Shown one piece after another: positions 405 to 32,538 of a DNA stretch of 61,225 nt (position 1 is the stretch's first letter; each line of letters begins with the position of its first letter). The notes beneath the pieces are model-generated. The model was not told where the DNA came from and did no database searches. It saw nothing but the letters and a program-made list of their open reading frames with translations. The stretch spans positions 1-61,225 of the forward strand of contig JAURJU010000075.1 in NCBI GenBank assembly GCA_030832085.1. Direction: 5' to 3'. The stretch is from Chitinophagales bacterium. Its GTDB lineage: Bacteria > Bacteroidota > Bacteroidia > Chitinophagales > Chitinophagaceae. Made by a program: the position numbers and the translations under genes.

Positions 405-1769
405 TTAATGCACGGCAAGATAAGGGTGTTTCCATGGTGATCGGTAATTCCGTTGAAGCATTGCAGTTGCTTCACTGTCATTGACAACAAGGCGCCTGAC
501 AGGGTCATAACGCAATGGACGCTGGAGTTTCATGGACATGTTGGCCAGTATGCAGGATGCAGTGGAAATATGTCCTTCTTCAATATCAGCAACAGGTTTT
601 ATACCCTTGTCAATGGCATGAAGAAAATTTTTCATGTGCTCACGTGTTGCAGGTGCAGCAAAGAGTTCAATGTCTTTTTCTGTAAGGTCTTCTGGATATT
701 TTTCCTTTTCAAGGACCACGTCACGGTGAATTTTTTCGCCCTTGCCAGATGGAATGAAGTCGTATTTCATGGTGCTTCCACACAGTGTTCCGTTTTCTCC
801 ATAGATCTTGAACGACCATGGGTATTCCGGGTCTGCAGCAGTACCCCAGGTGCGGTGTTGCCAGACGCAATTCAGTCCCTCATATTCAAAGACCGCTGTT
901 TGGGTATCTGCAATATTGCTTTTGCCAGGATTGCTGCCATAGATGCCGCCAGTTGAACTGATCCTGTTGGGCCAGCCAAGGTCAAGCATCCAACGCACGG
1001 TATCGAACATGTGGATGCACATGTCTCCCATGATGCCGTTGCCATATTCCATAAAGGCACGCCACCATCGACGGTGGGGTAAACCATCGTATTCCCTGAG
1101 GGGCGCGGGGCCTGTCCACATCTCATAATCCAAAAAATCTGGAACGGCTTGTACCGCTGGATTGCTGTTGTTGCGCATGTGGTAGTAACAGCACATTTCA
1201 ATATGGTGCACCTTGCCCAGCAGTCCGGCATCCACAATGTTTTTCTTTGCTTCAACCAGATGAGGCGTACTTCTTCGTTGTGTGCCCACTTGTACGGTCC
1301 GGTTGTATTTTCTTGCTGTGGCAAGAATGGCCTCCCCTTCCAGCACATCAACACTGATGGGCTTTTGAAGATAAACATGGGCGCCGGACTTGATCGATTC
1401 GATTGCCTGCAGTGCATGCCAATGGTCTGGAGAACCAATCAGCACCATCTCGGGTTTTTCAGCCGCCAGCATTTTTCGGTAGTCACCATAGGTTGGGATG
1501 GATGCAGAGGACTTTGATCTTTCAGCAACCAGCGATGCAGCAGTTTGCAGTTGCTGTTTGTCAACATCGCAAAGTCCAACCACTTCAATGGGCGCCACCT
1601 GCATCAACCTGAACAGGTCGCTTTTGCCATACCAGCCTGTGCCAATCAGGGCAACCCTGCGCGGATTTGCAAGTGCAAGTGCATCCAATCGCGATGCCTT
1701 GAAGGTGGACAGCGCAAACAATGCAGCACTGTTTCTGATGAAGTTTCGTCTGGTGTTCGCTTGTTGCAT
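405..1769 (-). CDS. Gfo/Idh/MocA family oxidoreductase, Tat-exported
   Basis: A 454-residue secreted NAD(P)-dependent oxidoreductase. I chose the internal ATG at 1769 (longer frame from 1814) because it puts the twin-arginine motif RRNFIR at residues 7-12, followed by a hydrophobic AALFALSTF stretch. The Rossmann nucleotide-binding segment VALIGTGWYG lies at about 39-48. The conserved EKP motif is present as YLQKP (E replaced by Q), and the substrate-domain motif GDMCIHMFDTVRW is visible. This subfamily, with DHWHA and GTQRR signatures, is widespread in Bacteroidota and Planctomycetota and is linked to periplasmic sugar oxidation. It is preceded on the same strand by an alpha/alpha-toroid glycosidase-like gene and followed 9 bases later by the aminoacyl-transferase-like gene. 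Family confident, substrate unknown. Confidence 0.85.
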   Translation of the reverse strand: MQQANTRRNFIRNSAALFALSTFKASRLDALALANPRRVALIGTGWYGKSDLFRLMQVAPIEVVGLCDVDKQQLQTAASLVAERSKSSASIPTYGDYRKMLAAEKPEMVLIGSPDHWHALQAIESIKSGAHVYLQKPISVDVLEGEAILATARKYNRTVQVGTQRRSTPHLVEAKKNIVDAGLLGKVHHIEMCCYYHMRNNSNPAVQAVPDFLDYEMWTGPAPLREYDGLPHRRWWRAFMEYGNGIMGDMCIHMFDTVRWMLDLGWPNRISSTGGIYGSNPGKSNIADTQTAVFEYEGLNCVWQHRTWGTAADPEYPWSFKIYGENGTLCGSTMKYDFIPSGKGEKIHRDVVLEKEKYPEDLTEKDIELFAAPATREHMKNFLHAIDKGIKPVADIEEGHISTASCILANMSMKLQRPLRYDPVRRLVVNDSEATAMLQRNYRSPWKHPYLAVH

Positions 1770-1833
1770 GGTTGATGTTGGACGCTGTGGAACTGTATTG
1801 AAAAGATAAGACAAACTGCTGGTTTATAAACCC

Positions 1834-3435
1834 CTATATCCCGCTAATTTCCAGGTAAACTGTTTCTCCTGCTTTCAATGCAAGCGGCAGTCCCTGGGAC
1901 AGGGATTTGCCGTTTGTTGTTGTGGTTTTCTCACTGCCGACGGACTTCACCCGATAGGATTTTTCCTGCTCTACCACAAACCATTCCTGGAACTGGTTGA
2001 TCCTCGGATAGTCTGCAGGGAAATGCATCATTGTTTTGTGACGGGGCTTGTCAAATTTTAATTTCCCTTTCCATCCTGTGGGGGTTGATACTGAAATTTT
2101 TACGCCTGTTGCAGTCCTGACGGCACCAATCAAAAGGTCCTTGTCCCATTCCGATGGAACGATTCCCTGTGTTTTCCACAGGCAATACATGATGGTCGTT
2201 CGCGCAAAATTTCCATCGCCATGCCATCCCTCTATCAAACCATCGGATTGCTGCATGGCCCACATTACCTTGATTTCACTGTCCAGCCATTCCTTGGCCG
2301 AGGGGATCGATTCGCGGTTGTAGAGGTTCAAGGTGCCTTCGATGGCGTCTGCGTACCCATCTGCACTGCTTCCTTCCCAAGGGTGGTTCCTGTATTTTTT
2401 ATTGAGGGATGAGAGTGCTTTGATGACTGCATTGCTGTAGGCCGGGACGGAGTCGATCCTTGAAATGAACCAATAGGCATTGAGGGTATACCCAAAATTA
2501 TCTGCCAGTCTTTTGGACAGGACCATTCCGTTTTTGGGATTGACTTCGTCATAAAAAAGTCCATCCTCATTTCGACCGACCTCAAGGATGCGATCCATCA
2601 TGGCATGGATGAAAGGCTTCCAGATTTTTCTTTTTTCCGGCATTGCAAAATGCGTGGCAATATACACTTCACACAAGCCTGAAATGATTTCGCAACCATG
2701 ATCCCTGATGCGCAGGTGGTCCAATGCGGTTGTGGGCAATTCCTTTGCGTTCAGGTAATGGTCAGCAATCTCAATGGCCCAGTCGAGGTATTTTCTATTT
2801 CCGGTGAACCAGTACATCCGCGACAAGACCTGCAACAGGTCACCGTTCACTTCTACAGTTGCACTGTTGCCATACCAACTGCCATGGATGTTTTTTGCAA
2901 CCCTGGTGAGCCGGGGAAGGTCATCGAGTATTTCCAGCATGCGCGCACTCCATGGACTTTTCCCCAACCATTCCGTGAGTGGAATGAGGCCATCTTTCAT
3001 GTATTCTGCAGCGCCAAAAATCAGCTGGTTGGTATCGATGGTTTCGTTCCTGAATCCCTTTTTTGAAAAAGAGTAGGTGTCAGGAAGTTTCCCTATCCTT
3101 GATGTGAGACGCTGTTCTGTCTTTAGCATCTGCAATGCTGTTTCTTTGAAAAAATCAGGCATCAGGATGGAGGAGGTCAATACCATGAATGGATAGTTGT
3201 CTGCAGCAGCATCCCAGGCATTCCAGAAATCCTTTGAATCATTGATGTTTCTTGGGATGAGTCCTGTGGAGGAATCTGCGTAACGCATCCATGCATTCAC
3301 ATAATTGATGCAACGGTTGAAGCCTTCGTTGACCAGCTTTCCCTGCTCAGCTGCGAGTTTGAATTCAGGGTCAATGTTTTGGGCATTTGCCAGACCCGCG
3401 AAGAACACCAACAACAAGGCAATCAGGAATTTCAT
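1834..3435 (-). CDS. Secreted alpha/alpha-toroid (six-hairpin glycosidase-like) protein
   Basis: A 533-residue protein whose ATG at 3435 gives a clean signal peptide (MKFLIALLLVFFAGLANAQ). The body is rich in paired helices with aromatic/acidic motifs (FWNAWDAAADNYP, NGDLLQVLSRMYWFTG, GFNRCINYVNAWMRY, DGLIEGWHGDGNFARTT), the look of an (alpha/alpha)6 toroid as in unsaturated glycuronyl hydrolases and related glycosidases. A small beta-rich C-terminal part (about 440-533) follows. I cannot place it in a GH family and see no certain catalytic pair. It sits 64 bases upstream of the Tat-exported oxidoreductase on the same strand, so the two are probably co-transcribed and may act on one glycan. 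It is divergent from the next gene with only 41 bases between start codons. Confidence 0.6.
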   Translation of the reverse strand: MKFLIALLLVFFAGLANAQNIDPEFKLAAEQGKLVNEGFNRCINYVNAWMRYADSSTGLIPRNINDSKDFWNAWDAAADNYPFMVLTSSILMPDFFKETALQMLKTEQRLTSRIGKLPDTYSFSKKGFRNETIDTNQLIFGAAEYMKDGLIPLTEWLGKSPWSARMLEILDDLPRLTRVAKNIHGSWYGNSATVEVNGDLLQVLSRMYWFTGNRKYLDWAIEIADHYLNAKELPTTALDHLRIRDHGCEIISGLCEVYIATHFAMPEKRKIWKPFIHAMMDRILEVGRNEDGLFYDEVNPKNGMVLSKRLADNFGYTLNAYWFISRIDSVPAYSNAVIKALSSLNKKYRNHPWEGSSADGYADAIEGTLNLYNRESIPSAKEWLDSEIKVMWAMQQSDGLIEGWHGDGNFARTTIMYCLWKTQGIVPSEWDKDLLIGAVRTATGVKISVSTPTGWKGKLKFDKPRHKTMMHFPADYPRINQFQEWFVVEQEKSYRVKSVGSEKTTTTNGKSLSQGLPLALKAGETVYLEISGI

Positions 3436-3476
3436 ATTTTCATCATTTGGTAGTACCATCAAAAGGTCCGAAAATT

Positions 3477-4469
3477 ATGAACAATCATCAAAACAATGGG
3501 CAATGCATTTCCTGGGGCATTATCGGTTGCGGCAATGTAACAGAACTCAAAAGTGGACCGGCATTCAATAAAGTGCCTGATTCTCGGTTGCATGCCGTGA
3601 TGCGCAGGGATGCATTGAAAGCAGAAGATTATGCGGCGCGACATGGTGTGCCTGTTTGGTACAACGACGCCAATTCCCTGATCAATGATTCTGCCATCAA
3701 TGCCATTTATATTGCAACGCCCCCAAAATTCCATGAGGAATATGCCATTGCCGCATTGGAAAAAGGCAAGGCTGTTTATGTAGAAAAACCGGTTGCTGTT
3801 TCAGTGGCCGCTTCTAAAAGAATGGCCGATGCTGTAATGGCCAACAATGGAAAGCTGGTCGTGGCCCACTACCGGAGAGGATTGCCCATGTTTTTGAAAA
3901 TAAAAGAATTGGTTGAAGCAGGTGCGGTGGGTAAGGTAAAAAACATCCGCTTGACCATGTTTCAAACACACAGAACTGACATTGTTGCCCAAACAGGGTT
4001 CAACTGGCGTGTAGATCCCGAATATGCAGGTGGCGGTTATTTTTATGATTTGGCACCACACCAGCTCGACATCATCCAGTTTATTTTTGGTGAAGCCCTT
4101 CGCAAGGCCGGTGCCGCCGCACATCAAACCAATTTTTATGCAGCGGAAGATGCAGTATCTGGAATTATGGAGCTTCCCAACAATATTTTGTTTCAGGGCG
4201 ATTGGAATTTCTCAATGCCAGACATCATGAAGGAAGACAGCTGCCTGATCATTGGAGAAAAAGGCTACCTCAAGTTTCCATTTTTTGGATCATCGCTAAG
4301 GATTGTGTCAACAGCAGGTGAGGACCTGATTTCCTTCGATCATCCGCAAAACATTCAGCATCCCATGATCAGCAAGGTGGTAGACTATTTTTTAGAACGG
4401 GGTGAAAATCCCTGCTCCATCGAAGAGGCCATCAAGAGCATGGAAGTGATGGAAACCTTTGCACGTTAA
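3477..4469 (+). CDS. Gfo/Idh/MocA family oxidoreductase, cytoplasmic
   Basis: A 330-residue oxidoreductase, and the only one of the seven paralogues in the window without a signal sequence. The ATG at 3477 leaves eleven residues before the Rossmann segment WGIIGCGNVTE. The EKP motif is intact (VYVEKPVAVS), and GGGYFYDLAPHQLDIIQFIFG is the family's central region. It should oxidise or epimerise a sugar or polyol with bound NAD(P). The start is 41 bases from the divergent toroid gene, so both promoters must overlap each other or the coding ends. Downstream on the same strand lies the propeller/cytochrome gene, with a TAnnTTTG-type element directly after this gene's stop codon. Confidence 0.82.
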   Translation: MNNHQNNGQCISWGIIGCGNVTELKSGPAFNKVPDSRLHAVMRRDALKAEDYAARHGVPVWYNDANSLINDSAINAIYIATPPKFHEEYAIAALEKGKAVYVEKPVAVSVAASKRMADAVMANNGKLVVAHYRRGLPMFLKIKELVEAGAVGKVKNIRLTMFQTHRTDIVAQTGFNWRVDPEYAGGGYFYDLAPHQLDIIQFIFGEALRKAGAAAHQTNFYAAEDAVSGIMELPNNILFQGDWNFSMPDIMKEDSCLIIGEKGYLKFPFFGSSLRIVSTAGEDLISFDHPQNIQHPMISKVVDYFLERGENPCSIEEAIKSMEVMETFAR

Positions 4470-4476
4470 CTACTTG

Positions 4477-4484
4477 TATATTTG
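4477..4484 (+). promoter_or_regulatory. Candidate Bacteroidota -7 element (TATATTTG)
   Basis: TATATTTG is an exact match to the TAnnTTTG consensus and lies 46 bases before the chosen start of the propeller/cytochrome gene. A TTTG at 4458-4461 could be the -33 element, but the 15-base spacer is shorter than usual. It begins 8 bases after the upstream stop codon. The assignment rests on consensus match only. Confidence 0.35.
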
Positions 4485-4530
4485 CCAAACCATCCAACGC
4501 ACTCATTTTCGTCATCGATCATTCAACGGT

Positions 4531-7500
4531 ATGCACATGCAAAACAACATCAACCCTGCACGCATTTCATTGGTCATTTTTCTCTTCCTGGCCGTTCTTT
4601 CCTATACCCTGCCAAAGTATGGCTTCAACATTGCGGCAACGCACAAGGACAGCCTTACCCCTGCACAAATGCGGCTTCCAGAAAACGCCCTGAAAGGGCT
4701 TTCTGTTGCCTATGGACTGCAGGTGCAGTTGATGGCGACAGAGCCCATGTTGCAAAATCCCACCAACATTGATGTTGATGAAAGGGGAAGGATTTGGGTG
4801 ACGGAAGCATATAACTATCGACCCAACCTCAATGGCAATCCAACAACACCCAACGGCGATCGCATCATGATCCTTGAGGACAGGAATGGCGATGCAAAAA
4901 TAGATACAGCAAAACTTTTTTACCAGGGCCCGGAGATCAATGCGCCCTTGGGCATTGCCGTATTGGGCAAGCGGGTGATTGTAGCACAAAGTCCTTATGT
5001 CTGGAATTTCTACGACGATAACGGCGATGACAAGGCCGATCGAAAAGAAATCATGTTCCAGGGCATTGAAGGGGAGCAGCATGACCATGGCATGCACACC
5101 TTCAGTTTTGGTCCGGATGGAAAACTGTATTTCAACTTCGGCAACAATGGAAAAACATTGAAAGACAGCAAGGGCAATACGGTTCTGGACCAGGACGGGG
5201 ATGAAATCGGTCCGAAAAAATACAAGCAAGGCATGGTGTTCCGATGTGATCCCGATGGCTCACGTGTGGAATGCCTGGGGGATAATTTCAGGAACCCTTA
5301 TGAAGTGGCCGTAGACAGCTATGGCACCATGTGGCAAAGTGACAATGATGATGATGGCAACAAGGGAACACGCATCAACTACGTAATGCCCTATGGCAAT
5401 TACGGGTATACCGATGAAATTACGGGTGCCGGATGGAATTCGTCGCGTACGAACATGGAAGACTCCATTCCATTGCGGCATTGGCATTTGAATGATCCGG
5501 GAGCAGTTCCCAATGTACTGCAAACCGGTGCCGGATCGCCGACAGGTCTATTGGTATATGAGGGAACGCTTTTGCCGGAGGCTTTTCAGCACCAACTCAT
5601 CCATGCGGATGCCGGCCCCAATGTGGTCCGGGCTTATTCCATCCAGAACCAGGATGCTGGTTATGGGGCCAGCATTGTAAACATACTGAAGGGTGAAAAC
5701 GACCGTTGGTTCAGGCCTGCAGACGTTTGTGTTGCACCCGATGGTTCTCTGATTGTGGCCGACTGGTACGACCCGGGGGTGGGTGGACACCAGGCGGGTG
5801 ATCAGACCAGGGGAAGGATCTACCGGGTAGCCCCGGCAAAAGCAGCTGCATACACCATGCCTTCATTTGATTTTACAACGGTTGAAGGTGCAATGGTTGC
5901 CCTTCAAAACGCAAACCTGGTGGTGCGGTACCATGCTTTCACGGCCTTGCAGCAATTTGGGAAAAAGGCAATCTCCCCTTTGGAAAAGCAATGGAAGTCT
6001 GATGCCGATCCTGCTTTGCGGGCAAGGGCATTCTGGAGTCTTGTAAAAATGCCTGGAGCGAAGCCAGAAAAATACATCAAACAGGCGCAGCAGGAAAAAA
6101 ATCCACAGCTAAGGATGCTGGCGATCAGGGCAAGCCTTCAGCTCAAAGGCAATACCACTGCCGTTTTGAACGCACTGAAACTTGATCCTGACCCTCAGGT
6201 AAGAAGGGAGTGCATCATCGCCCTTCACCACAACAAAAGCCCTGAATCGGCCGCCATATGGGCCACCCTGGCTACACAGTATGATGGAAAAGACAGGTGG
6301 TACCTGGAGGCCCTGGGCATAGGCGCGGACGGACAATGGGATGCTTTTTTCAGCGCCTACCTTGATATCGTGAAGGATCCCACAAAAGACGCAGCCGGAA
6401 GGGATTTGGTCTGGAGGGCAAGAACAGAAAAAGCAGTTCCTTATTTGGCAGGGCTGGCTGCTGATGGCAGCTCCCCGCTCAAGACAAGGCTCCGTTATTT
6501 CCGTGCTTTTGATTTTAACGATGGCCCTGCAAAAACTGCAGCATTGTTGAAGATGGTTGCAGATAACAAGGCAAGCGACCTTGCCATGGACAAGTTGGCG
6601 CTTTTCTCATTGAATCCAGATGCCATAAAAAATATGCCAGCAGCACAGAGGGCATTGAAAAATGTCCTGGATGCCAGCTATGGCACCAGGGACTACCTGG
6701 ATCTGGTGGCTTTGTACAACAGGAAAGATGAGCAGCACAGATTGCTTGAGATGGCCATTGCAAAGAACAACGAAGACCTGGGAAGAACTGCGGCAAAGAC
6801 CCTGATTGGTTTTGGCGGACAGGCGGAGGCATGGAAAACCATCAATGAAACGGACAATACCAGGTCGATGGGCCTTTTGAATGCACTTTCCAAAGTAGGC
6901 AATACCATATCTGTTGATCTCTTGCAGGCAGTAGCCTTGGGCATTCGTTTTCCTGAACCCATGAGAAAATATGCCGCTGTCAGGATTGGCAAAAGTGGTG
7001 AAGGAGAAAAAAGGGTATTGGAGATCCTGAAATCGGGGATGGTACCAGAAGCGCTGATCCCGGATGTAGTGGAGGGTGTCGGGTCATCATGGCGCCAGGC
7101 CGTTCGCATCGAGGCCAGAAGTTATTTGCCCAAGAAAGCAGCGGTGGAAGTCGTGGACAAGGTTCCAACCATTGACGAAATCAATGCAATGAAAGCCAAT
7201 GCAACGAATGGCAAAGCGATATTCGCTTCCAACTGCGCGGTCTGCCACAAGGCCAATGGAGAAGGATTGGATTTTGGTCCGGCCCTTTCAGAAATTGGTT
7301 CCAAATATGCAAAGGATGCGATGCTCAAGGCAATCGTTTACCCCTCTGAGGGCATCAGTTTCGGATATGAAGGATGGGTGTTGAAAATGAAGGACGGTTC
7401 CGATATGGTGGGCATCATGGCCAGCAAAACAAAAACGGAAATTGAACTGAAAATGCCAGGAGGGATGGTACAAAAACTAAAAACATCTTCGGTGAAGTCC

Positions 7501-7608
7501 ATGGAACAAATGAAAGTTTCCATGATGCCTGCCGGATTGCATGCGAGTATGTCTGCACAGGAAATGGCAGACCTCCTGTCCTATCTCGATGGGCTCAAAA
7601 GAAAATAA
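4531..7608 (+). CDS. PVC-type beta-propeller / HEAT repeat / cytochrome c protein
   Basis: A secreted 1025-residue protein. A membrane-anchor or signal-like segment (ISLVIFLFLAVLSYTL) is followed by a six-bladed beta-propeller of the 'membrane-bound dehydrogenase' type (about 70-430; GPEINAPLG, FGPDGKLYFNFG, NPYEVAVDSYG, QSDNDDDGNKG, ADWYDPG). Helical HEAT-like repeats span about 450-830, and a C-terminal mono-heme cytochrome c domain has CAVCH at about residue 902. This architecture is typical of Planctomycetes and Verrucomicrobia heme proteins and is also found in Bacteroidota. The usual inference is a periplasmic sugar or alcohol dehydrogenase passing electrons to its own heme, but the substrate is unknown. 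Start candidates are ATG 4531 and 4537; I chose the first. A penicillin acylase gene follows after 40 bases. Confidence 0.85.
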   Translation: MHMQNNINPARISLVIFLFLAVLSYTLPKYGFNIAATHKDSLTPAQMRLPENALKGLSVAYGLQVQLMATEPMLQNPTNIDVDERGRIWVTEAYNYRPNLNGNPTTPNGDRIMILEDRNGDAKIDTAKLFYQGPEINAPLGIAVLGKRVIVAQSPYVWNFYDDNGDDKADRKEIMFQGIEGEQHDHGMHTFSFGPDGKLYFNFGNNGKTLKDSKGNTVLDQDGDEIGPKKYKQGMVFRCDPDGSRVECLGDNFRNPYEVAVDSYGTMWQSDNDDDGNKGTRINYVMPYGNYGYTDEITGAGWNSSRTNMEDSIPLRHWHLNDPGAVPNVLQTGAGSPTGLLVYEGTLLPEAFQHQLIHADAGPNVVRAYSIQNQDAGYGASIVNILKGENDRWFRPADVCVAPDGSLIVADWYDPGVGGHQAGDQTRGRIYRVAPAKAAAYTMPSFDFTTVEGAMVALQNANLVVRYHAFTALQQFGKKAISPLEKQWKSDADPALRARAFWSLVKMPGAKPEKYIKQAQQEKNPQLRMLAIRASLQLKGNTTAVLNALKLDPDPQVRRECIIALHHNKSPESAAIWATLATQYDGKDRWYLEALGIGADGQWDAFFSAYLDIVKDPTKDAAGRDLVWRARTEKAVPYLAGLAADGSSPLKTRLRYFRAFDFNDGPAKTAALLKMVADNKASDLAMDKLALFSLNPDAIKNMPAAQRALKNVLDASYGTRDYLDLVALYNRKDEQHRLLEMAIAKNNEDLGRTAAKTLIGFGGQAEAWKTINETDNTRSMGLLNALSKVGNTISVDLLQAVALGIRFPEPMRKYAAVRIGKSGEGEKRVLEILKSGMVPEALIPDVVEGVGSSWRQAVRIEARSYLPKKAAVEVVDKVPTIDEINAMKANATNGKAIFASNCAVCHKANGEGLDFGPALSEIGSKYAKDAMLKAIVYPSEGISFGYEGWVLKMKDGSDMVGIMASKTKTEIELKMPGGMVQKLKTSSVKSMEQMKVSMMPAGLHASMSAQEMADLLSYLDGLKRK

Positions 7609-18665: not shown

Positions 18666-18758
18666 GGGGTGGTGTGCTTTGATGGTAAAATTACCCCATC
18701 CGGATTGATGAAGCATAAAAGGAGTAGCCAGTCTTTGGTTAAAGTTGAAATGAAATGA

Positions 18759-19988: not shown

Positions 19989-21101
19989 TCAGACCTTTAA
20001 AAATATTTTTTTCTGGTAAAGAAAATACATGAAAATCCATTTGATCAATACCACTGAAATGGCCATTGCCACTGCATTGTAAGGATCTCCAACAAGGTCG
20101 GAAAGCCACTGGAACAGTCCCTTGTTCGCATAGGACCAGTTGATGAATTTTCCAGACATGTAGATGAGGATGGAGTTCATGCCAATGACCTTAAAGAAGA
20201 ATGCCCATTTTCTATAACCAAGCACATCTATCACCCAGTAAAAAAGTGCAAAAAGCAAGAGACTGAAGCCAACGGTATGCATCACAAATGAACTGGACCA
20301 AAGGTTTTTGTTGATCGGAAAATCGAGGCTCCAGAGCTGAGCGATGGCCAGGGAAAGCAATCCTGCTATAGCCATCATGCCTGATTTTTTTGAAGGCGCA
20401 TCGTTGTTGTGTTTGAGATAATTCCCTGCAATGATTCCTGCAAGGGCAGAGCTGATGGCAGGGATATTGTTGAAAAGCCCTACTGTATCATGGATGCCCC
20501 TTGACAATTTTCCGGGAAGCACAGTCCTGTCAAAGTAAGAAGAAAAATTTCCTGCTTCTGTAAGATCGCCCGGCATAAAACCCGGAGCCGATGTAAATTT
20601 CATCAGCAGCCAGTATCCGACAAGCAGTGCTGTGAACCAAATGATTTGGGCCCTCTCTTTTGTGTAGAGGTAAATGATGCTTCCCAACATGGTCGCAATC
20701 CCAATCCTGCCCAGCACACTCATGAACCTGATGTCGCTGATCGGTTTGATCTGCAATCCATTGTTGTATATGATCCCCAATAGAACCAGGATCAGCCCCC
20801 TTTTGATGACTTTCCAGAGCAGTGCATTTTTGGATTTTCCTGCCGCTATCGCGCTGCCGATGGCATATGGGGTTGAAACGCCAGAAAGGAAAATGAAAAG
20901 CGGAAAAATCAGGTCATAGGCCGTGAATCCGTTCCAAACTGGATGTTCAAATTGTGCTGAAAGACCCTCCCAGAAAGGATGATGGGTGACGGCTCCCATG
21001 GAATGGAATACCTCCTCAGCACCGATGATCCAAAACATGTCAAATCCCCGAAGGGCATCGAGAGAGAAAAGCCTTTGCTTGATGGTTTGATTTGTTTGCA
21101 T
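19989..21101 (-). CDS. HGSNAT/NagX-like membrane protein (DUF5009)
   Basis: A 370-residue polytopic membrane protein with about ten hydrophobic segments. It opens with the family signature RLFSLDALRGFDMFW (from ATG 21101; the frame extends upstream to 21203). Relatives are lysosomal heparan-alpha-glucosaminide N-acetyltransferase and bacterial NagX proteins, proposed to bring GlcNAc or glucosamine across the inner membrane or to acetylate it. The position just upstream of nagA (54 bases) supports an amino-sugar role. A Gfo/Idh/MocA gene ends 120 bases upstream on the same strand. Confidence 0.85.
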   Translation of the reverse strand: MQTNQTIKQRLFSLDALRGFDMFWIIGAEEVFHSMGAVTHHPFWEGLSAQFEHPVWNGFTAYDLIFPLFIFLSGVSTPYAIGSAIAAGKSKNALLWKVIKRGLILVLLGIIYNNGLQIKPISDIRFMSVLGRIGIATMLGSIIYLYTKERAQIIWFTALLVGYWLLMKFTSAPGFMPGDLTEAGNFSSYFDRTVLPGKLSRGIHDTVGLFNNIPAISSALAGIIAGNYLKHNNDAPSKKSGMMAIAGLLSLAIAQLWSLDFPINKNLWSSSFVMHTVGFSLLLFALFYWVIDVLGYRKWAFFFKVIGMNSILIYMSGKFINWSYANKGLFQWLSDLVGDPYNAVAMAISVVLIKWIFMYFLYQKKIFLKV

Positions 21102-21221
21102 GGCGGACAACTGTTGGGACTTGAATGGATGAAAAATATTTTCAAGGTTCGGCATGATGCATTCAACCGGGTCAATGAGCTCATGCAGCAGCATCAACTG
21201 CAAACATCTTTCTGATCTGCA

Positions 21222-22565
21222 TTAAACCTTGGGTTCCCATCCCTTCTCGTATTCCCTGCTCCATAGTTTCATGGCATCCTTGTCGTGCAGGATCCTTCCA
21301 TTGCTTGCATCGATGTTCAGGGTTCGTCCGGTTCGTTGGGCGATGTTCCCCAATTGAACCAGCAGGGTGCTTTGGTGTCCGCTCAATATATCTGAATTCA
21401 GTGCAGCACCTTTTTTGATGGCAGCAAAAAAGTTTTGAATATGCAGCGCATCCAGTTCCATGCCCGGTCCGGTCTTATCAAGCGCATTGGCTGTGATATC
21501 GTTCTTTACTTCTTTTACCAGCTTGCTCTTGAGGTCAAATATCTTGTAAGCATTACCACTTTCAATCAGCAGTGATCCTGTTTCGCCATAGAAAATCACA
21601 CCAACAGAGCTGCCCTCGACGGACTTTCCATTGCAGGACCTGCCCTCCCAGGAAATCTGGGTATTGTTGTCAAATTCAAGGTTGATGACCTGCGTGTCCG
21701 GTGTCTCCCAATCGTCCTGGTAGCGGTAACGTCCACCTGCAGAAGTCACGCGGGTGGGATAATTCACTCCAAGTCCCCAACGCGCAAGGTCGACCATATG
21801 TGTCCCATTGTTCAACGCCTCGCCAGTTCCCCAATGCCAGAACCAATGCCAATTGTAGTGGATCAGGTTGTCCTTGTAAGCTTTTCTTGGTGCGGGTCCC
21901 TGCCAGAGATCATAATTGAGCCAGGAGGGCACATCCGTCACCTTGCCCACACCAATCGATTCTCTGTTGTTGGTGTACCAAGTTTTTGCAAAGTAGGGTC
22001 TGCCAATGACGCCTGCATGCAGCTCCTTGATGGCGGCCATCACATTGGGCCAGGACCTTCGTTGGTTGCCCATTTGAAGCAATTTGTTGTGTTTTGTTGC
22101 AGCCTTTACCAGCATCTCTCCTTCATTGGGGTTGTGGCTACAGGGTTTCTCCAGATAAACATGTTTGCCTGCTGCCACGGCCAGCAATGCGGCGGGTGCA
22201 TGCCAGTGGTCTGGTGCCGTTACAATCAACAGGTCAAGGTTTTTGTCATCCAGCGCCTTCCTGAAATCACCTTCCGCCTTTGGCCTTTTTTGTTGTGCTT
22301 TTTCCACTGCATTCACGCATTTGTCCATTGCACGCGAATCCACATCACAAACATGTGAAACTTCACATTCTTTTTGCGAAGCGAAGTTGGTGCTGACAGA
22401 CAAACCCCTGCTGTTCACACCCATCACCGCGGCAGTGATCTTTTCATTGGATCCCAGGATGTTGCGGTATTGACTTGCAGAAAAAACAGGGAGTATGCCA
22501 CCAAAGGCAATGGCAGCGGAGGCTGCAGAGGTTTTCTGGATAAAACTTCTTCTGGAACGACTCAT
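21222..22565 (-). CDS. Gfo/Idh/MocA family oxidoreductase, Tat-exported (447 aa)
   Basis: A secreted oxidoreductase with twin-arginine motif SRRSFIQK at the N-terminus. The Rossmann region is VMGVNSRG, slightly degenerate. DHWHAPAAL, HVYLEKPCSHNPNEG and MGNQRRSWPN mark the large Bacteroidota/Planctomycetota subfamily, and WHWFWHWGTGEALNNGTHMVDLARW forms the substrate domain. It probably uses a tightly bound NAD(P), as exported members cannot exchange cofactor freely (established for glucose-fructose oxidoreductase). Its ATG overlaps the TGA of the upstream paralogue by 4 bases (ATGA), so the two are translationally coupled. Substrate unknown. Confidence 0.88.
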   Translation of the reverse strand: MSRSRRSFIQKTSAASAAIAFGGILPVFSASQYRNILGSNEKITAAVMGVNSRGLSVSTNFASQKECEVSHVCDVDSRAMDKCVNAVEKAQQKRPKAEGDFRKALDDKNLDLLIVTAPDHWHAPAALLAVAAGKHVYLEKPCSHNPNEGEMLVKAATKHNKLLQMGNQRRSWPNVMAAIKELHAGVIGRPYFAKTWYTNNRESIGVGKVTDVPSWLNYDLWQGPAPRKAYKDNLIHYNWHWFWHWGTGEALNNGTHMVDLARWGLGVNYPTRVTSAGGRYRYQDDWETPDTQVINLEFDNNTQISWEGRSCNGKSVEGSSVGVIFYGETGSLLIESGNAYKIFDLKSKLVKEVKNDITANALDKTGPGMELDALHIQNFFAAIKKGAALNSDILSGHQSTLLVQLGNIAQRTGRTLNIDASNGRILHDKDAMKLWSREYEKGWEPKV

Positions 22566-23620
22566 GATGGAAGGTTTAATTGTTGTATGATTTTGTTGGC
22601 TTTTTTGAGATGGGCATTGTACACATCCTTTAGTTGAACGGCTTTGCCGCTACTGCGTTTGCTTTCGTCGGCGGCTTCCATGAAGGTATAGATCTCCAGT
22701 GTTTCCTTCGGGTTGATGGGTAGATCACCCGTTTTGAAAAAGTTGATAATCCTGTCGAGCAGGTTGTCATATCCCTTGTAAGGGCCCAGGGTTATTGGTC
22801 CTTTTTCACCATAGGCTGTCCCGCCGTATTCATGTTTGCCTGTTCGTGTACCGCGGAAGATTCCGATCCTGCCATCTTCCCAAATACCAACCACTACTTC
22901 TGTTCCTTCGGTTTGGGTGCGGGTGACGGACTGACAACCGGTACCCATGACGGTATAGAGGGTTTCCACTCCATGAATGCCATACCAGAAGAGATCAGGA
23001 TGGGTGGATTCGAGGGTTGCGGGACTGAAACAGTCTGCACCCAGGATCTTTCCAACCTTGCCAGAAGCCGCTTCCTGTGCGGATTCCATGTACCGCAGCG
23101 ATGAGCAGGAGAAGAAAGGGACCTTGAGTTTTTCAGCAACAAAATAGAGGGCGATGGCATCCGTGAGGGTGCCGGCAACGGGCTTGTCGATGAACAGGGG
23201 TTTGCCTGCTTTCATCACTTCAAGGGCCTGTTGCAGGTGTGGGCGGCCATCGTTGGTTTCCAATAAAACGAAATCAACCTTCTTCAGGAGCTCAGCGATT
23301 GAGTCTACAATCTCTACTCCCATTTTTTTCACTTCCTCAATATAGCCGGGGATTCTTTTGGTGGAGGACTCAATGTCTGCGCTGCCTTTGGGGTAAGCCG
23401 CCACAATGCGAAAGTCTTTGTATTTGTCGGGAGGATTTCCTGCATTCAAGGCTTTGGTGAAGGCGATGCTGTGGGAGGTATCGAGCCCAATGATGCCGAT
23501 CCTTCCGCCATCAGACAATTGCTGGCAAGCCTTTGCCGGTTGTATCAAACCTGAGAGTCCCAATGCCATTCCGGACAGGCCGGCATCGCGCATGAAGCGC
23601 CTGCGGTTATAATTTTTCAT
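22562..23620 (-). CDS. Gfo/Idh/MocA family oxidoreductase, Tat-exported (352 aa)
   Basis: A distant paralogue of its downstream partner. The twin-arginine motif is NRRRFMRD. The nucleotide-binding segment is IGIIGLDTSHSIAF, a variant in which the usual second and third Gly are replaced. The EKP motif is FIDKP. This 'LDTSHS' type is a recognisable subgroup in Bacteroidota. The ATG at 23620 is preferred over one two codons earlier. It overlaps the next oxidoreductase by 4 bases, suggesting two subunits or sequential enzymes made in equal amounts. Confidence 0.82.
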   Translation of the reverse strand: MKNYNRRRFMRDAGLSGMALGLSGLIQPAKACQQLSDGGRIGIIGLDTSHSIAFTKALNAGNPPDKYKDFRIVAAYPKGSADIESSTKRIPGYIEEVKKMGVEIVDSIAELLKKVDFVLLETNDGRPHLQQALEVMKAGKPLFIDKPVAGTLTDAIALYFVAEKLKVPFFSCSSLRYMESAQEAASGKVGKILGADCFSPATLESTHPDLFWYGIHGVETLYTVMGTGCQSVTRTQTEGTEVVVGIWEDGRIGIFRGTRTGKHEYGGTAYGEKGPITLGPYKGYDNLLDRIINFFKTGDLPINPKETLEIYTFMEAADESKRSSGKAVQLKDVYNAHLKKANKIIQQLNLPS

Positions 23621-23740
23621 GTGCAATCGTTTTGGCAGCCCAAGTAAGTTAAAAATAAAAAGGTAAATATTCTCAAATCAGTTTTGTTTTACATACTCTG
23701 ATGTACCGTTACACTCGGGAGGTGAAAGCGGAGGTATTTT

Positions 23741-25389: not shown

Positions 25390-26487
25390 ATGAACAGTCG
25401 CCGCAGTTTTATCCAAAAGCTTTCAGCTCCCATCATAGCATTGCCTTTCGTCCAACACATGAAAGTCGAAGAGATCCCATATGAAGGGCCGGTTTTGCGC
25501 ATTGCCATCATGGGCCTGGGCGGATATGCAACCCGTGTGGCGGAGGCCATGCAGTCCTGCAAAAAAGCCAAAGTGGTAGGGCTGATCAGCGGGACCCCTT
25601 CCAAGATCAAGGCTTGGAGGGAGAAATACAATATTGCGGAAAGCAATTGCTATGATTATGGCAATTTCGATGCAATCAAGGACAACAAAGAAATCGATGC
25701 TGTTTATATCATCACGCCCAATGCCTTGCACAAGGAGCAGGCCATCAGGGTGGCCAAAACGGGCAAGCATGTGATTGTGGAGAAGCCCATGGCCCTGAAC
25801 GCCAAAGAAGCCGGTGAGATGATTGATGCTTGCAAAAAGGCGGGTGTTCAATTGCTGGTGGGATACAGGATGCATTTTGAACCCAAGACCCTAGAAGTGA
25901 TCAGGATGAGAAAGGATGGGGAGTTTGGGAAAATCAAGTTTTTCCAGGGATTGACAGGCTTTCGGATTGGCGATCCCAAACAATGGCGCTTGAACAGACA
26001 ACTTGCTGGGGGTGGATCGATGATGGACATTGGTATCTATGCCATCAACGGGATGCGCTACATGACCGGGGAAGAGCCCATCTGGGTCACTGCACAGGAA
26101 ACAAAAACCGATCCTGTTAAATTTGCAGAAGGGGTTGACGAAACGATACAGTTCCAAGCAGGCTTTCCCAGTGGCGCAGTCGCCTCCTGTTTGTCAAGCT
26201 ATGGCATTGGCAGCCTTGATCGATTCTTTATCAGTGGGGAAAAGGGATTTGCAGAAATGCAACCTTCCACTGGCTATGGACCCATCAAGGGCCGAACCCA
26301 CAAGGGCGAACTGTCACAGCCGCACCAGCCCCATCAAACGCTACAAATGGAAGAATTTGCCGCCATCTTATTGGAAGGCAAAACGCCCATTGTGCCTGCC
26401 GATGGTGAAGAGGGATTGAAGGACATGAAGATCATCGATGCCATTTATCAGGCGGTGAAAACAGGAAAAAAGGTTAGGCTGGCCTAA
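25390..26487 (+). CDS. Gfo/Idh/MocA family oxidoreductase, Tat-exported, GFOR-like
   Basis: A 365-residue secreted oxidoreductase. The twin-arginine motif is SRRSFIQK at residues 3-10. The Rossmann segment is IAIMGLGGYATRVAEAM, EKP is intact (HVIVEKPMALN), and LVGYRMHFEP plus GGGSMMDIGIYAINGMRYMTG closely follow glucose-fructose oxidoreductase, the classical periplasmic Tat member that keeps NADP bound and cycles it between two sugars. This is the best candidate in the window for a GFOR-type reaction. Upstream is a terminator. Downstream it overlaps the convergent ABC ATPase gene by 14 bases. Confidence 0.88.
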   Translation: MNSRRSFIQKLSAPIIALPFVQHMKVEEIPYEGPVLRIAIMGLGGYATRVAEAMQSCKKAKVVGLISGTPSKIKAWREKYNIAESNCYDYGNFDAIKDNKEIDAVYIITPNALHKEQAIRVAKTGKHVIVEKPMALNAKEAGEMIDACKKAGVQLLVGYRMHFEPKTLEVIRMRKDGEFGKIKFFQGLTGFRIGDPKQWRLNRQLAGGGSMMDIGIYAINGMRYMTGEEPIWVTAQETKTDPVKFAEGVDETIQFQAGFPSGAVASCLSSYGIGSLDRFFISGEKGFAEMQPSTGYGPIKGRTHKGELSQPHQPHQTLQMEEFAAILLEGKTPIVPADGEEGLKDMKIIDAIYQAVKTGKKVRLA

Positions 26488-28876: not shown

Positions 28877-30349
28877 CTATTTCTTGAACTCCCAGCCTGC
28901 CCTGTTGATGCGGGATACAAACTGGTTGGCATCGTCGAAGTTGGTGATCTTCATGGAAGCACCATCCCAAAGCAGTTTCTTTCTGCCATAGAAGTCCTGT
29001 CCTGTTGTTCCATTGGCTTTTTTTACTTCTTTGCGCAGCATGTAGCTCCTGATGGCAAGGTTACCCATCAGTACGGTTTCTGTAAGTGGACCAGAGTAGT
29101 CAAAAGATGAGCTGAGTTCCTTGTGCGCTTTGCTGTTGAATCCGGCCTTGCAGGCTTCGGTCCAGGAGACCTGGTGCCCGAATTCAGGCAATTTCACAGC
29201 ATTTTTATCCGGTTCCGGCGCTACAATTTTTTCACCCGTGTTCAGGTAGATTTTGGGCCTGTTTCCATACATGTCGATGGTCATCAATCCTTTTGTTCCA
29301 TGAAGAAAAATGCCGTTGGCACCGTTGCCATCTGTGCTCAGTGGCTCATTGGCAGGAAGCTGGTCAGGGTGGAATGGACGTATCCCCCCATCCATCCAAA
29401 CCATTTTCAATGGGCTTTTGTTCTTTTTGGTGGCAGGGAACTTGATTTCAACATGGGAAGAAGGAGGACATCCTTCAGGAATGTATTCAGGGTTCCAATC
29501 CCTGATGAATACAGATCCTACACTGCATTCCACTTCTGTGGGGTAGCCAAGACCAAGGATCCTGAATGGTGAATCGATGGTATGGCAGCCGATATCACCC
29601 AATGCGCCGGTGCCGAAGTTCCACCATCCCCGCCATTTGAATGGATGAAAGAGAGGATTGTAATCCATGTATTCGGCAGGTCCAATCCAGGTGTTCCAGT
29701 CTTCTGCAGACATTGACGCTGGCAATGCTGGCTTGTCTTTTGGCAGGGGGATGCCCTGTGGCCAAACGGGCCTGTCTGTCCAAATGTTAACCGTATGTAC
29801 AGTTCCAATCAAGCCCTTGTCAAACCAATCCATGGCAACTTTTTGAAGTGGATTGGATGCACCCTGGTTTCCCATCTGGGTAACCACCTTGTTTTTTCTT
29901 GCAGCCTCGGTAAGCATCCTGGCTTCAGCAATATTGTGTGTCAGTGGCTTTTGAACATACACGTGTTTGCCCATCGACATGCAGGCCATGGCGGCATACG
30001 CATGGAAATGGTCTGGTGTTGAGATGGTTACTGCATCAATGTCCTTTCCAGACTTGTCCAGCATTTCCCTGAAATCGCGGTATTTCGCTGCATTGGGGAA
30101 TTTTTCAAAAGAGTTTTTGCACTTGTCCCAATCCAGGTCAGCCATGGCCACAACATTGTTGACGCCGTTGTTGTAGGAGTTGAGCAAATCCGATTGCCCC
30201 TTTCCTCCTGCCCCGATGGCAGCAATGTTCAGCTTGTCACTGGGGGCAGTATACCCTTTACCGATGACATGGCGCGGAACAATAAAAAAACCTGCAGCGG
30301 CAATGGAGCCCTGCTTGATGAAACTTCTCCTGTTGTTTTGTTTTGGCAT
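28877..30349 (-). CDS. Gfo/Idh/MocA family oxidoreductase, Tat-exported (490 aa)
   Basis: The longest of the seven oxidoreductases. The ATG at 30349 places the twin-arginine motif NRRSFIKQ at residues 6-13; the frame itself runs up to 30454 and would overlap the neighbour. The Rossmann segment is IAAIGAGGKGQSDLL. DHFHAYAAMACMSMGKHVYVQKP shows the EKP motif with Gln instead of Glu, as in the first oxidoreductase of this window. Aromatic-rich stretches (WRGWWNFGTGALGDIGCHTID) are typical of the subfamily often called 'glucose-fructose oxidoreductase-like'. It lies 47 bases downstream of another oxidoreductase on the same strand, so both likely form one operon ending at the bidirectional terminator. 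Confidence 0.87.
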   Translation of the reverse strand: MPKQNNRRSFIKQGSIAAAGFFIVPRHVIGKGYTAPSDKLNIAAIGAGGKGQSDLLNSYNNGVNNVVAMADLDWDKCKNSFEKFPNAAKYRDFREMLDKSGKDIDAVTISTPDHFHAYAAMACMSMGKHVYVQKPLTHNIAEARMLTEAARKNKVVTQMGNQGASNPLQKVAMDWFDKGLIGTVHTVNIWTDRPVWPQGIPLPKDKPALPASMSAEDWNTWIGPAEYMDYNPLFHPFKWRGWWNFGTGALGDIGCHTIDSPFRILGLGYPTEVECSVGSVFIRDWNPEYIPEGCPPSSHVEIKFPATKKNKSPLKMVWMDGGIRPFHPDQLPANEPLSTDGNGANGIFLHGTKGLMTIDMYGNRPKIYLNTGEKIVAPEPDKNAVKLPEFGHQVSWTEACKAGFNSKAHKELSSSFDYSGPLTETVLMGNLAIRSYMLRKEVKKANGTTGQDFYGRKKLLWDGASMKITNFDDANQFVSRINRAGWEFKK

Positions 30350-30396
30350 GACTGTGGTTTTATCTTTCGTTTGAAAATGTAAGCATGGATTGCAAA

Positions 30397-31500
30397 TCAG
30401 ATTTTTTTTGCGAACTGCTGTGCCTTCAGTGCCAGCTCTGTGGCTAAAAAACAATGTGCCTGTGGCATGGCGGTTTCTGTTCTGTTGACCACATCATCCA
30501 CAAATTGTTTCCCAAAAGGCAATGGTTCATTGTTGCAGTCAAGGTAGATGGTTTCCTTGTTGTTGGCCATGTACAGGTGATTGCCTGAAGCGTAACGGGC
30601 AATATCAATGTTTTTCCTGATTTCGATGAATCCGTCGGTGCCGAGGATGGTCAATCTTCCATCACCCCAGGTTTTCAAGCCATTGGGCGTGAACCAATCC
30701 ACCCTGATATAACCTGCACCGCCGTTGCCCTTCAGCATCACATCTCCAAAATCTTCAAATTTGGGATATTGTTGGTTGTTGACATTTCCCGTTTGGGATG
30801 CCACCACCTCTGCTGAAGTTGATCCGGTAAAAAACAGGAACTGGTCAAATTGGTGCGATCCAATGTCGCAGATGATTCCGCCATATTTTTTTTTGTCAAA
30901 GAACCATTCTGGCCTGGCATTGGCATTGATGCGGTGAGGGCCAAGTCCAATGGTTTGAACCACTTTCCCGATTGCCCCTGCCTTGATAAGTTCTCCTGCC
31001 TTGACTGTTGCCTTGTTTTCAAATCGTTCGCTGAACATGATCGAATAGATGCGCCCGGTTTCCTTTTGCACTTTTCTTACTGCTGCCAATTGGTCCAGCG
31101 TGATGATTCCCGGTTTGTCTACCAGGTAATCCTTTCCGTGTTTCATCACCTCAATGCCCAAGGGCGCCCTTTCATCAGGAATGCCCGAACTAAGGACCAC
31201 CTGTATGCTCTTGTCTTCCAATATTTCCTTTGCGCTGGAGGCTTGTTTTACCTGCGGATAAGCCTTTACAAATGCGGCCAAAAGCTCAGGTTCCTTTGCA
31301 TAAACGGAAACAAGTTCACCCCCACCCTTGATGACAGCATTGCACATGCCATAGATATGGCTGTGGTTGATGTTGATTACTGAAAACCGAATACGGATTT
31401 CTGCGGGGGCTTCTTCTTTTTTCTTTTCAGCAAAAGAGGAGAGCATCATCAATCCGCCTGCGGCGGCAGTACTTTTTAGGAATTCACGTCTCTGGGGCAT
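30397..31500 (-). CDS. Gfo/Idh/MocA family oxidoreductase, Tat-exported (367 aa)
   Basis: The twin-arginine motif is QRREFLKS at residues 3-10, with a Gly/Ala-rich hydrophobic stretch after it. The nucleotide-binding strand is FSVININHSHIYGM, lacking the canonical GxGxxG and resembling the 'DTSHS' paralogue at 22.6-23.6 kb. The EKP motif is present as YLVDKPG. The substrate domain has GGIICDIGSHQFDQFLFFTG. It is first in a two-gene operon with the 490-residue paralogue, mirroring the coupled pair at 21.2-23.6 kb, where again one canonical and one degenerate-Rossmann member are adjacent. Confidence 0.83.
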   Translation of the reverse strand: MPQRREFLKSTAAAGGLMMLSSFAEKKKEEAPAEIRIRFSVININHSHIYGMCNAVIKGGGELVSVYAKEPELLAAFVKAYPQVKQASSAKEILEDKSIQVVLSSGIPDERAPLGIEVMKHGKDYLVDKPGIITLDQLAAVRKVQKETGRIYSIMFSERFENKATVKAGELIKAGAIGKVVQTIGLGPHRINANARPEWFFDKKKYGGIICDIGSHQFDQFLFFTGSTSAEVVASQTGNVNNQQYPKFEDFGDVMLKGNGGAGYIRVDWFTPNGLKTWGDGRLTILGTDGFIEIRKNIDIARYASGNHLYMANNKETIYLDCNNEPLPFGKQFVDDVVNRTETAMPQAHCFLATELALKAQQFAKKI

Positions 31501-31692
31501 ATGGTAGGTTGAGTGAGGTTTAGGTAAGTTGAGGAATGCTAAATCGTTATCGTAATTTATTGAATTTATTTATTGAATCTTTATTAATTTCAAATAATAC
31601 TTCAACCACCAGTCTTTGGATCACCCATCTACTGCTGGTCATCAAATTAAACTGCCTCCAATTTTTCTGAATCTCCATAAACCGCATTCCAC

Positions 31693-32538
31693 ATGAACTC
31701 ACGCCGCAACTTTCTACAAAAAGCATCTTTCGGTTTTGCAGCCGCCGCAGCACTCCCTGCAATTGGATCAGCAATGACCTCTCAGGGCAATGAAAATGCC
31801 CTTGAGGGTCCGGTCAGCCTTCCTTTGGGTTTTGCAGGCTATTCTTTTGTGAAGTTTGATTTGGACAAATCCATGGCCATGATGAAACGCCTTGCGGTGG
31901 AAAATCTATCTGTCAAGGAGTTCCATCTGCCATTGAATTCAACACAGGAAACCATTGATGCAGTGAAGAAAAAACTCAGCGATGCAGGCATCAAACCCTA
32001 TACTGTTGGAGTAATATACATGAGAAGCAAGGAGGCGGTCGACCAGGCTTTTGCTTATGCACAAAAAATCGGCGTCAGCATGATTGTTGGGGTTCCCAAT
32101 CCAGAACTGCTCAGCTATACCGAGGAAAAAGTCAAAGAGACCAATATCCGCATGGCCATCCACAACCATGGTCCTGAAGACAAGCTCTATCCAAGCCCCA
32201 AAGACATTTATGACAGGATCAAAGACATGGATGCACGCATGGGTCTTTGTGTTGACATCGGTCATACCCTTCGTGCAGGTGTACTGCCCGAAAAAGTGGT
32301 GGTGGAATACAAGGACAGGGTTTTTGACCTGCACATCAAGGATGTGACTGCAATGGCGAAAGATGCCAAGGTTGCAGAGGTAGGAAGGGGCGCAATCAAC
32401 TTCCCTGCCTTCGTAAAGGCCTTGAAAAAAATCAAATATTCCGGTGTTTGCAGCATTGAATATGAAAAAGACATGAGCGATCCATTGGTGGGCATGGCTG
32501 AATCTGTTGGCTTTTTCAGGGGAGTGCTCAAGGCGTAA
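31693..32538 (+). CDS. Sugar phosphate isomerase/epimerase-like TIM barrel, Tat-exported
   Basis: A 281-residue protein with twin-arginine motif SRRNFLQK at residues 3-10. The rest is an AP-endonuclease-2/xylose-isomerase-like TIM barrel. Metal-site segments in order are IHNHGPEDK, CVDIGHTLRAG, DLHIKDV and SIEYEKD. Cytoplasmic relatives isomerise or epimerise sugars. Exported ones in Bacteroidota co-occur with Gfo/Idh/MocA enzymes and DUF1080 and are proposed to act on 3-keto-glycosides, for example as eliminating lyases. It is divergent from the oxidoreductase operon (192 bases, AT-rich) and precedes a receptor gene by 29 bases. Confidence 0.82.
   Translation: MNSRRNFLQKASFGFAAAAALPAIGSAMTSQGNENALEGPVSLPLGFAGYSFVKFDLDKSMAMMKRLAVENLSVKEFHLPLNSTQETIDAVKKKLSDAGIKPYTVGVIYMRSKEAVDQAFAYAQKIGVSMIVGVPNPELLSYTEEKVKETNIRMAIHNHGPEDKLYPSPKDIYDRIKDMDARMGLCVDIGHTLRAGVLPEKVVVEYKDRVFDLHIKDVTAMAKDAKVAEVGRGAINFPAFVKALKKIKYSGVCSIEYEKDMSDPLVGMAESVGFFRGVLKA

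Follow-up and report, generated by a model that had tools for sequence, protein, structure and literature searches.

Among the substrates known to undergo stepwise 3-keto chemistry are glucosides, trehalose and levoglucosan. The Alistipes enzymes of a 2024 Nature study and the Bacteroides thetaiotaomicron proteins BT2157-BT2159 reportedly carry out oxidative 3-keto glycoside breakdown, and in GH109 enzymes C3 oxidation, elimination, hydration and re-reduction all take place in a single active site. BT2158, a glycoside 3-dehydrogenase of the periplasm, is reported to be required for growth on trehalose, leucrose and palatinose (PMC11300592, in extract), and BT2157 is given as a 3-ketotrehalose hydrolase (PMC9007349, in extract); in the same extract NagX, often encoded within chitin operons, is proposed to be a transacetylase for periplasmic glucosamine. 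Elimination and hydration of 3-keto-levoglucosan are carried out by LgdB1 and LgdB2, whose annotation is sugar phosphate isomerase (PMC7676230, in extract), and a xylose operon with a Gfo gene and an isomerase-like gene is mentioned in an extract of PMC5507952. Here we analyse 61,225 nucleotides from a freshwater Chitinophagales bacterium (JAURJU010000075.1 of assembly GCA_030832085.1; 'the window', which is the entire contig C47). A preliminary description had noted in 31 kb of it seven Gfo/Idh/MocA (Gfo) oxidoreductases, six with twin-arginine translocation (Tat)-like signals, together with a DUF1080 protein, an exported TIM barrel and a heme protein, and all of these are present (PF01408, PF06439, PF01261 and TIGR02604/TIGR02603 respectively). 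The seven Gfo genes, which fall within positions 405-31500, are called A to G below.

We propose, with moderate confidence, that these 31 kb are not one oxidative locus, that their core is an amino-sugar catabolic run D-C-NagX-NagA, and that C and D form a periplasmic C3-oxidation module for amino-sugar glycosides which feeds N-acetylglucosamine (GlcNAc) to NagA. The linkage of C-D to amino-sugar genes is conserved in many Bacteroidota and is the strong part of this proposal; C3 oxidation, the order of steps and the substrate are what we infer.

The amino-sugar run and its conservation

The genome comprises 2.89 Mb in 111 contigs (98.4% complete, 4.8% contamination), and contig C47 is correctly binned, since the same-genus stretches L070, L071, L076 and L084 carry much common gene order. 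On the minus strand the order is D, C, NagX-like, NagA, DUF4197, Tat phosphoesterase, GH18 and thioredoxin-like, with a DUF1080 gene convergent to D-C-NagX-NagA:

22562-23626, minus strand: D, Tat-type Gfo protein, upstream of C and co-directional with it (PF01408, 37 bits)
21222-22565, minus strand: C, Tat-type Gfo protein (PF01408), overlapping D by 4 bp; core of the conserved amino-sugar gene set
19989-21203, minus strand: NagX-like membrane glucosamine N-acetyltransferase (NCBIfam NagX NF046061, 331 bits over the full model)
18759-19934, minus strand: NagA, N-acetylglucosamine-6-phosphate deacetylase (TIGR00221, 273.6 bits, above the cut-off of 225.65)
17064-18716, minus strand: DUF4197 protein and Tat-type metallophosphoesterase, which stay near NagA across the genus
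15428-17063, minus strand: thioredoxin-like protein and GH18 family protein, found here, among the relatives read, only in G003, G005 and G017
14431-15414, plus strand: DUF1080/3-keto-disaccharide hydrolase family protein (PF06439, 124 bits, above the cut-off of 26.8)

Gfo proteins were assigned by PF01408 above its cut-off, and Tat-like calls come from a twin-arginine pattern search near the N terminus rather than from a signal-peptide program; this search found the motif in six of the seven Gfo proteins (all except B), in the TIM barrel and in the phosphoesterase at 17064. The NagX-like protein lies below the NF046061 equivalog cut-off (331 vs 480 bits) and is listed from an upstream TTG, its real start being probably further in. 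The DUF1080 protein had no PDB sequence match at 0.001.

Fifteen related genomes of the genus were fetched around C or D. C and NagX share a single fragment in 11 of them; of the others, the contig stretches from G016, G018 and G025 stop at C or close to it, and G014 carries a paralogue at 57%. The DUF1080 gene stays near the run within the genus. In the window 54 bp separate NagX from NagA. In G007 and G023 this interval holds NagB-like and NagP-like genes, and in G024, G012 and G008 it is about as wide as in those two; G006 has NagB, and the window, G003, G005, G013 and G017 have neither gene there. The NagB-like and NagP-like genes of G007, where DUF4197 is inverted, score above Pfam or gluP cut-offs and below the nagB and NagP equivalog cut-offs.

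Seven C proteins were used in a pattern and tblastn search against 84,980 species genomes, which returned at least 579 C relatives, and the best 80 of these (59-82% identity) were kept as loci; these are selected by likeness to C, and some are short. All 1076 open reading frames of the 80 loci were clustered without prior names, the cluster names agreeing with Pfam and NCBIfam for the representatives tested. Within 10 kb of C, the clusters found were D (57 loci), NagA (53), NagB (47), a major facilitator superfamily (MFS) transporter (31) and a LacI regulator (24), then DUF1080 (15), a PF16490 Gfo lipoprotein (14) and NagX (8), and an Nramp-family transporter was also among the top clusters. 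NagA, NagB or NagX was near C in 56 of the 80 loci, and in 41 of the 50 that have at least 8 kb on both sides; in 51 of the 80 they stand in one same-strand run with C. C and D are immediate same-strand neighbours in 44 of the 57 loci that hold D, as are D and DUF1080 in 11 of 15. By tblastn no DUF1080 gene of the window type lies near C in the 80 loci, the 15 found there being of another type.

Three gene orders recur. The first, LacI-D-C-MFS-NagA-NagB-PF16490 Gfo, is seen in Dyadobacter and, in modified forms, in Chitinophaga, Spirosoma and Pedobacter; the second, LacI-C-D'-DUF1080-NagA-Nramp-NagB, is found in four Arenibacter, Splendidivirga and Urechidicola; and in the third, from four Cytophagaceae loci, C-NagX-NagB-NagA faces DUF1080-D-MFS. 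In three of these four (L089, L091 and L092) kin of F, which are F's nearest tree rows, lie 0.2-1.3 kb beyond the MFS gene, and L091 has SusC-SusD and a BNR-repeat (sialidase-like) gene in front. In a quick tree of 107 rows, made with no bootstrap, window C and the matched C proteins form one 84-row clade (SH-aLRT 99). Rows of C2, a paralogue described below, fall just outside it, a DUF1080-linked Gfo protein of the own genome further out and F-type enzymes beyond; rows from the same loci that fall outside the C clade are other Gfo genes.

Two side observations come from these loci. The Nramp-family transporter occupies the sugar-transporter position in C-D'-DUF1080-NagA-Nramp-NagB operons (L108, L109, L112, L118, L123, L141 and L143), and may serve there as a manganese supply for the pathway or as a sugar carrier. 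Genes that by eye encode DegT-like aminotransferase, ceramidase-like and Kelch-like proteins occur together near C in L088, L091, L099, L113, L124 and L158.

An independent sample consisted of 117 same-family genomes (own included), drawn regardless of C content, in which match listings at stringent E-values were compared by eye with a 10-kb limit. It gave 45 C matches outside the own genome, five at 63-75% identity and 40 at 58% or less. All five close orthologues (at least 59% identity) adjoin amino-sugar genes, four with NagA and/or NagB and one with NagX only, and D is adjacent to C in three. Their orders, with symporters named by eye, are C-NagX (G300), NagB-NagA-symporter-S9-C-D-LacI (G232), NagB-LacI-NagA-C-D-symporter-SusC-SusD with GH92, SASA and ROK kinase genes nearby (G226), LacI-NagA-MFS-C-D (G283) and C-MFS-PF16490-NagA-NagB-LacI (G213). 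A NagA match lay within 10 kb of three of the five close C orthologues, compared with one of 187 other Gfo and TIM matches. Two of the 40 distant matches were read, and both are the paralogue C2: TIM-C2-SusD-SusC in G262 and Gfo-TIM-PF16490-C2-DUF1080 in G300. A class-wide sample held C in seven and NagA in seven of 149 genomes (own included). In G166 (C at 59%) a NagA match is 44 bp away, G173 (54%) has C and NagA on separate contigs, and no NagA match was obtained in G154 or G094 (C at 52%); the sample is too small to use, and what it shows argues against C and NagA being generally linked once identity falls below about 59%. The suggestion of amino sugars in the preliminary description was a good guess, given that C-D is part of a conserved gene set with NagA, NagB and NagX.

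The fold of C and the divergent partner D

The structure model of C is nearest to PDB 8tdf, the Alistipes glucoside-3-dehydrogenase AL3, which is also matched in the profile search (115 bits). C is below the BT_2158 equivalog cut-off (NF058561, 141.7 vs 750 bits). D, whose model has a Gfo fold (pLDDT 90.9), carries a loop GLDTSH in place of GxGxxG, the dinucleotide (NAD) motif of canonical Gfo dehydrogenases. Among the 57 sequences of the D cluster this loop is G[LC]DTSH in 36 and GAENSH in 21, and residues D49, T50, S51, H52, K148, P149 and H218 are invariant in the 36 D sequences aligned. These features suggest that D has lost the usual mode of NAD binding. A comparable pair is formed by two further window genes:

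28877-30454, minus strand: F, Tat-type BT2158/AL3-like glycoside 3-dehydrogenase candidate (BT_2158_fam, 462.8 bits; PDB 8tdf, 325 bits)
30397-31500, minus strand: G, Tat-type Gfo protein, kin of 3u3x and 2p2s, with a loop NINHSH and not GxGxxG

F, with its 8tdf match and RR motif, is of the exported glycoside-3-dehydrogenase type. The PDB kin of G have loops LNHNH (3u3x) and LAHNH (2p2s), and in PF16490 Gfo lipoproteins the second glycine is replaced by D or E in 11 of 14 rows and the third by His in 13 of 14 (no match in one row); a further site of a divergent Gfo is L104:14880-16286. A canonical Gfo recurs beside a divergent [D/E/N]xxH Gfo in C-D, in F-G and in two more places in the own genome (contigs C93 and C96). 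Both D and G match profile models weakly, and the BT_2159 equivalog (NF058563, cut-off 650 bits) was matched best by C, at 27.6 bits, with no match of D or G at E 0.001.

It may be, though this is doubtful, that an oxidative route dedicated to amino-sugar glycosides exists in Bacteroidota within their GlcNAc gene sets: the periplasmic canonical Gfo C would make a 3-keto amino sugar, and the NAD-free partner D ([D/E]xxH) would serve as lyase or hydratase in loci that lack DUF1080, with F-G and the PF16490 Gfo lipoproteins following the same partner principle. If so, the [D/E/N]xxH partner Gfo families would have an activity new to this old fold. The openly licensed literature searched did not describe Gfo or DUF1080 genes as members of GlcNAc gene sets, and subscription papers could hold such a description.

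A possible pathway and its alternatives

Import of GlcNAc, its phosphorylation and deacetylation by NagA are established for the family. We suggest that the exported Gfo pair C and D acts upstream of these steps, in the periplasm, on glycosides containing N-acetylhexosamine. From its fold and kin, C with bound NAD would oxidise the amino sugar at C3; the 3-keto glycoside would then be broken by elimination and hydration, possibly by DUF1080, the TIM barrel or D; and C or F may reduce the 3-keto amino sugar back. NagX would acetylate free glucosamine, and GlcNAc would be imported, phosphorylated and then deacetylated by NagA, with F, as an enzyme of BT2158/AL3 type, supplying the same chemistry for gluco-configured glycosides. 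Exported sugar-oxidising enzymes within a conserved amino-sugar gene set suggest that amino-sugar chains may be cut by such bacteria through an oxidise-then-break chemistry and not by ordinary hydrolysis alone. If N-acetylhexosamine glycans (chitin fragments, mucin-type glycans or peptidoglycan pieces) are served in this way too, hydrolase-based predictions for Bacteroidota miss a widespread route, and many genes annotated 'Gfo/Idh/MocA family oxidoreductase' beside nag genes would gain a testable role.

Several findings weigh against this proposal. None of NagA, NagB and NagX is present in nine of the 50 well-flanked C loci, and the 40 family C matches at 58% identity or less, some on short contigs, had no nearby NagA match. 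The window has no NagB or NagP between NagX and NagA, a result that covers the run itself. DUF1080 is not a general partner of C, since it is present in just 15 of the 80 C loci, and window-type DUF1080 and NagA show no genome-level co-occurrence in the family sample (five genomes vs 4.6 expected, p 0.51). C and AL3 are only 23% identical with a root-mean-square deviation of 5.2 in the structure search, where other Gfo enzymes score nearly equal, and the C model has low confidence at 235-250, within a conserved block. Because D has no NAD motif, a scheme with two dehydrogenases is doubtful.

An alternative that we consider unlikely is that C alone is an NAD-dependent glycosidase on N-acetylhexosaminides, like GH109, and that DUF1080 and the TIM barrel are unrelated neighbours. 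The amino-sugar linkage and the 65 of 80 C loci in which DUF1080 was not found would fit this, and GH109 (2ixa) shares the superfamily fold and has an N-acetylhexosamine substrate; however, 2ixa scores 47.5 bits against C, over the N-terminal domain only, compared with 115 for AL3, GH109 is not among the 50 structure matches listed for C, and D usually stays beside C. It is rather improbable that C and D alter the sugar and not the bond, by oxidation and re-reduction with other stereochemistry or by repair of an unusual amino sugar, for entry at NagA/NagB. The structure matches listed for C do include aldose-aldose oxidoreductase 5a03, RgNanOx 6z3c and KanD2 6jw7, and the remaining gene set handles free sugars, but the paralogue C2 sits with a TIM gene (G262 and G300) and DUF1080 (G300), and an intracellular sugar would not need a Tat-type signal. 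We give least credence to the view that seven Gfo genes with separate roles lie together by chance, in the genome of a glycan eater rich in such genes. The gene counts and family comparison below would allow this view; it is refuted for C-D, whose linkage with NagX/NagA/NagB is kept across families and beside all five close orthologues, but it survives for A, B and E and probably for the DUF1080 gene.

The remaining Gfo genes and their neighbours

The other genes considered here are as follows:

405-1814, minus strand: A, Tat-type Gfo protein, a distant partial BT_2158_fam match (138.4 bits over 268 residues)
1834-3462: exported 542-aa protein (GHx) adjoining A, by eye an alpha/alpha-barrel glycan enzyme
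3387-4469, plus strand: B, generic Gfo protein (PF01408), with no Tat motif in the pattern search
4459-7608, plus strand: PVC-type heme protein with DUF7133, HEAT and cytochrome c domains, above the TIGR02604 and TIGR02603 cut-offs
25390-26487, plus strand: E, Tat-type Gfo protein, xylose-1-dehydrogenase (Gfo6)-like (NF041392, 197 bits, below the cut-off of 350)
31693-32538, plus strand: Tat-type AP_endonuc_2 TIM barrel, candidate 3-keto-glycoside eliminase/hydratase (PF01261, 69 bits; PDB 3lmz, 269 bits)
34814-37051, minus strand: GH20 beta-hexosaminidase (PF00728, 374 bits)

F (462.8 bits) and likewise A (138.4) are below the BT_2158 equivalog cut-off of 750, and GHx had no Pfam match and no convincing PDB match, with only a GH76 hint in PDB (E 0.13). 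The TIM gene is 192 bp from G and divergent from it, and the DUF1080 gene is 5.8 kb from the closest Gfo gene.

The genome holds 34 PF01408 matches in 2.9 Mb, and with uniform placement one in 20000 simulations puts seven of them in 30 kb. When matches within 3 kb are merged, the window holds three of 27 units, and 52.6% of simulations place at least three in some 30 kb. As merged units cluster to an ordinary degree, the Gfo excess is due to tandem neighbours. Thirteen of the 14 PF06439 matches of the genome are on other contigs, several near a Gfo gene, and compact groups of Gfo and DUF1080 genes lie on contigs C36 (about 86-90 kb, with a gene that by eye is TIM-like), C8 (42-46 kb) and C3 (32-34 kb). 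On C36 at about 170-176 kb a Gfo gene is divergent from DUF1080-SASA-GH20, and on contig C79 (7-14 kb) DUF1080, Gfo, a TIM gene (a second TIM by eye) and a PVC-type heme protein form one run; pathways of this kind may use the heme protein as electron acceptor. The short contigs C12 and C81 carry closely similar Gfo and DUF1080 matches, perhaps strain variants within the metagenome-assembled genome.

Within the genus, GH20-TIM-G-F recurs in G007 and G-F in G013. The 117 family genomes include 77 with F-like matches, 12 with G, 17 with TIM, 29 with window-type DUF1080, 44 with C and 20 with NagA, and among those outside the genus no shared neighbourhood of G-F, G-TIM or F-TIM was seen within 10 kb, nor was window-type DUF1080 seen near Gfo genes. 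The one proximity of F and DUF1080, 4.9 kb, is in the same-genus G010, which has no G or TIM match; one of 118 F matches is 65 bp from NagA (G278). At the genome level 16 of 21 pairs co-occur at p <0.05 (G with TIM in seven genomes vs 1.5 expected, p 6e-5; F with DUF1080 in 28 vs 18.3), which carries little weight as genome size and diet confound it. One locus for all parts is therefore rejected, F, G, TIM and window-type DUF1080 having shown no common neighbourhood outside the genus in the by-eye comparison of the 117 genomes (10-kb limit).

The comparison of orthologues across Chitinophagaceae that the preliminary description had called for thus spoke against its single dispersed locus and in favour of the C-D part. 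Its observation that the genes are spread over single genes and pairs rather than one polysaccharide utilization locus holds, and its oxidative parts list gains from the BT2158/AL3 likeness of F and the residues of the TIM barrel (below). Several parallel versions of a whole pathway are not supported: the best match of E is a xylose-1-dehydrogenase model, at a score below the cut-off, no Tat motif was found in B, the canonical NAD motif is absent from D and G, and in the family genomes outside the genus no neighbourhood shared by F, G, TIM or window-type DUF1080 was seen.

Apart from these genes, positions 50858-60187 of the window hold a polysaccharide export and synthesis cluster where G+C drops to 0.37; by eye it encodes an export protein, a Wzc-like kinase, a NusG-like protein, a deacetylase, a polymerase, a flippase, a glycosyltransferase and an acetyltransferase.

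Comparison with known systems

His-x-His/Asp/His/Glu residues are widespread in AP_endonuc_2 proteins, and eliminase activity of the window TIM barrel therefore does not follow from them. Its H157, H159, D188, H214 and E258 stand at a constant offset of +25 from the residues given for the Agrobacterium O-glycoside eliminase AtOGE (His132, His134, Asp163, His189 and Glu233; PMC10628242, in extract). In G274, G adjoins a GMC oxidoreductase, a Gluconate_2-dh3 subunit and two more Gfo genes, surroundings that in our own comparison resemble the LacABC-type lactose/glucoside 3-dehydrogenase (PMC9007349, in extract).

The levoglucosan system LgdA/LgdB1/LgdB2/LgdC likewise combines Gfo enzymes with 'sugar phosphate isomerase' proteins for elimination and hydration (PMC7676230, in extract), but acts on an anhydrosugar and has a different gene set. 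With the NAD-dependent alpha-N-acetylgalactosaminidases of GH109, C has the Gfo fold and the amino-sugar link in common, whereas in sequence and fold it is nearer to AL3. The NagX-NagP-NagA-NagB utilisation system is matched by NagA (above cut-off) and a NagX-like protein in the window and by NagP-like and NagB-like proteins in relatives; unlike it, the gene set described here keeps two Tat-type Gfo genes, sometimes with DUF1080 and a PF16490 Gfo, and the window run has no NagB or NagP. As in the Alistipes AL and BT2157-BT2159 systems, the window has exported Gfo proteins, among them F with its AL3 and BT_2158_fam matches, together with TIM and DUF1080 proteins; it differs from them in that its parts are dispersed, F is below the BT_2158 equivalog cut-off, and C-D sits with NagA/NagB/NagX.

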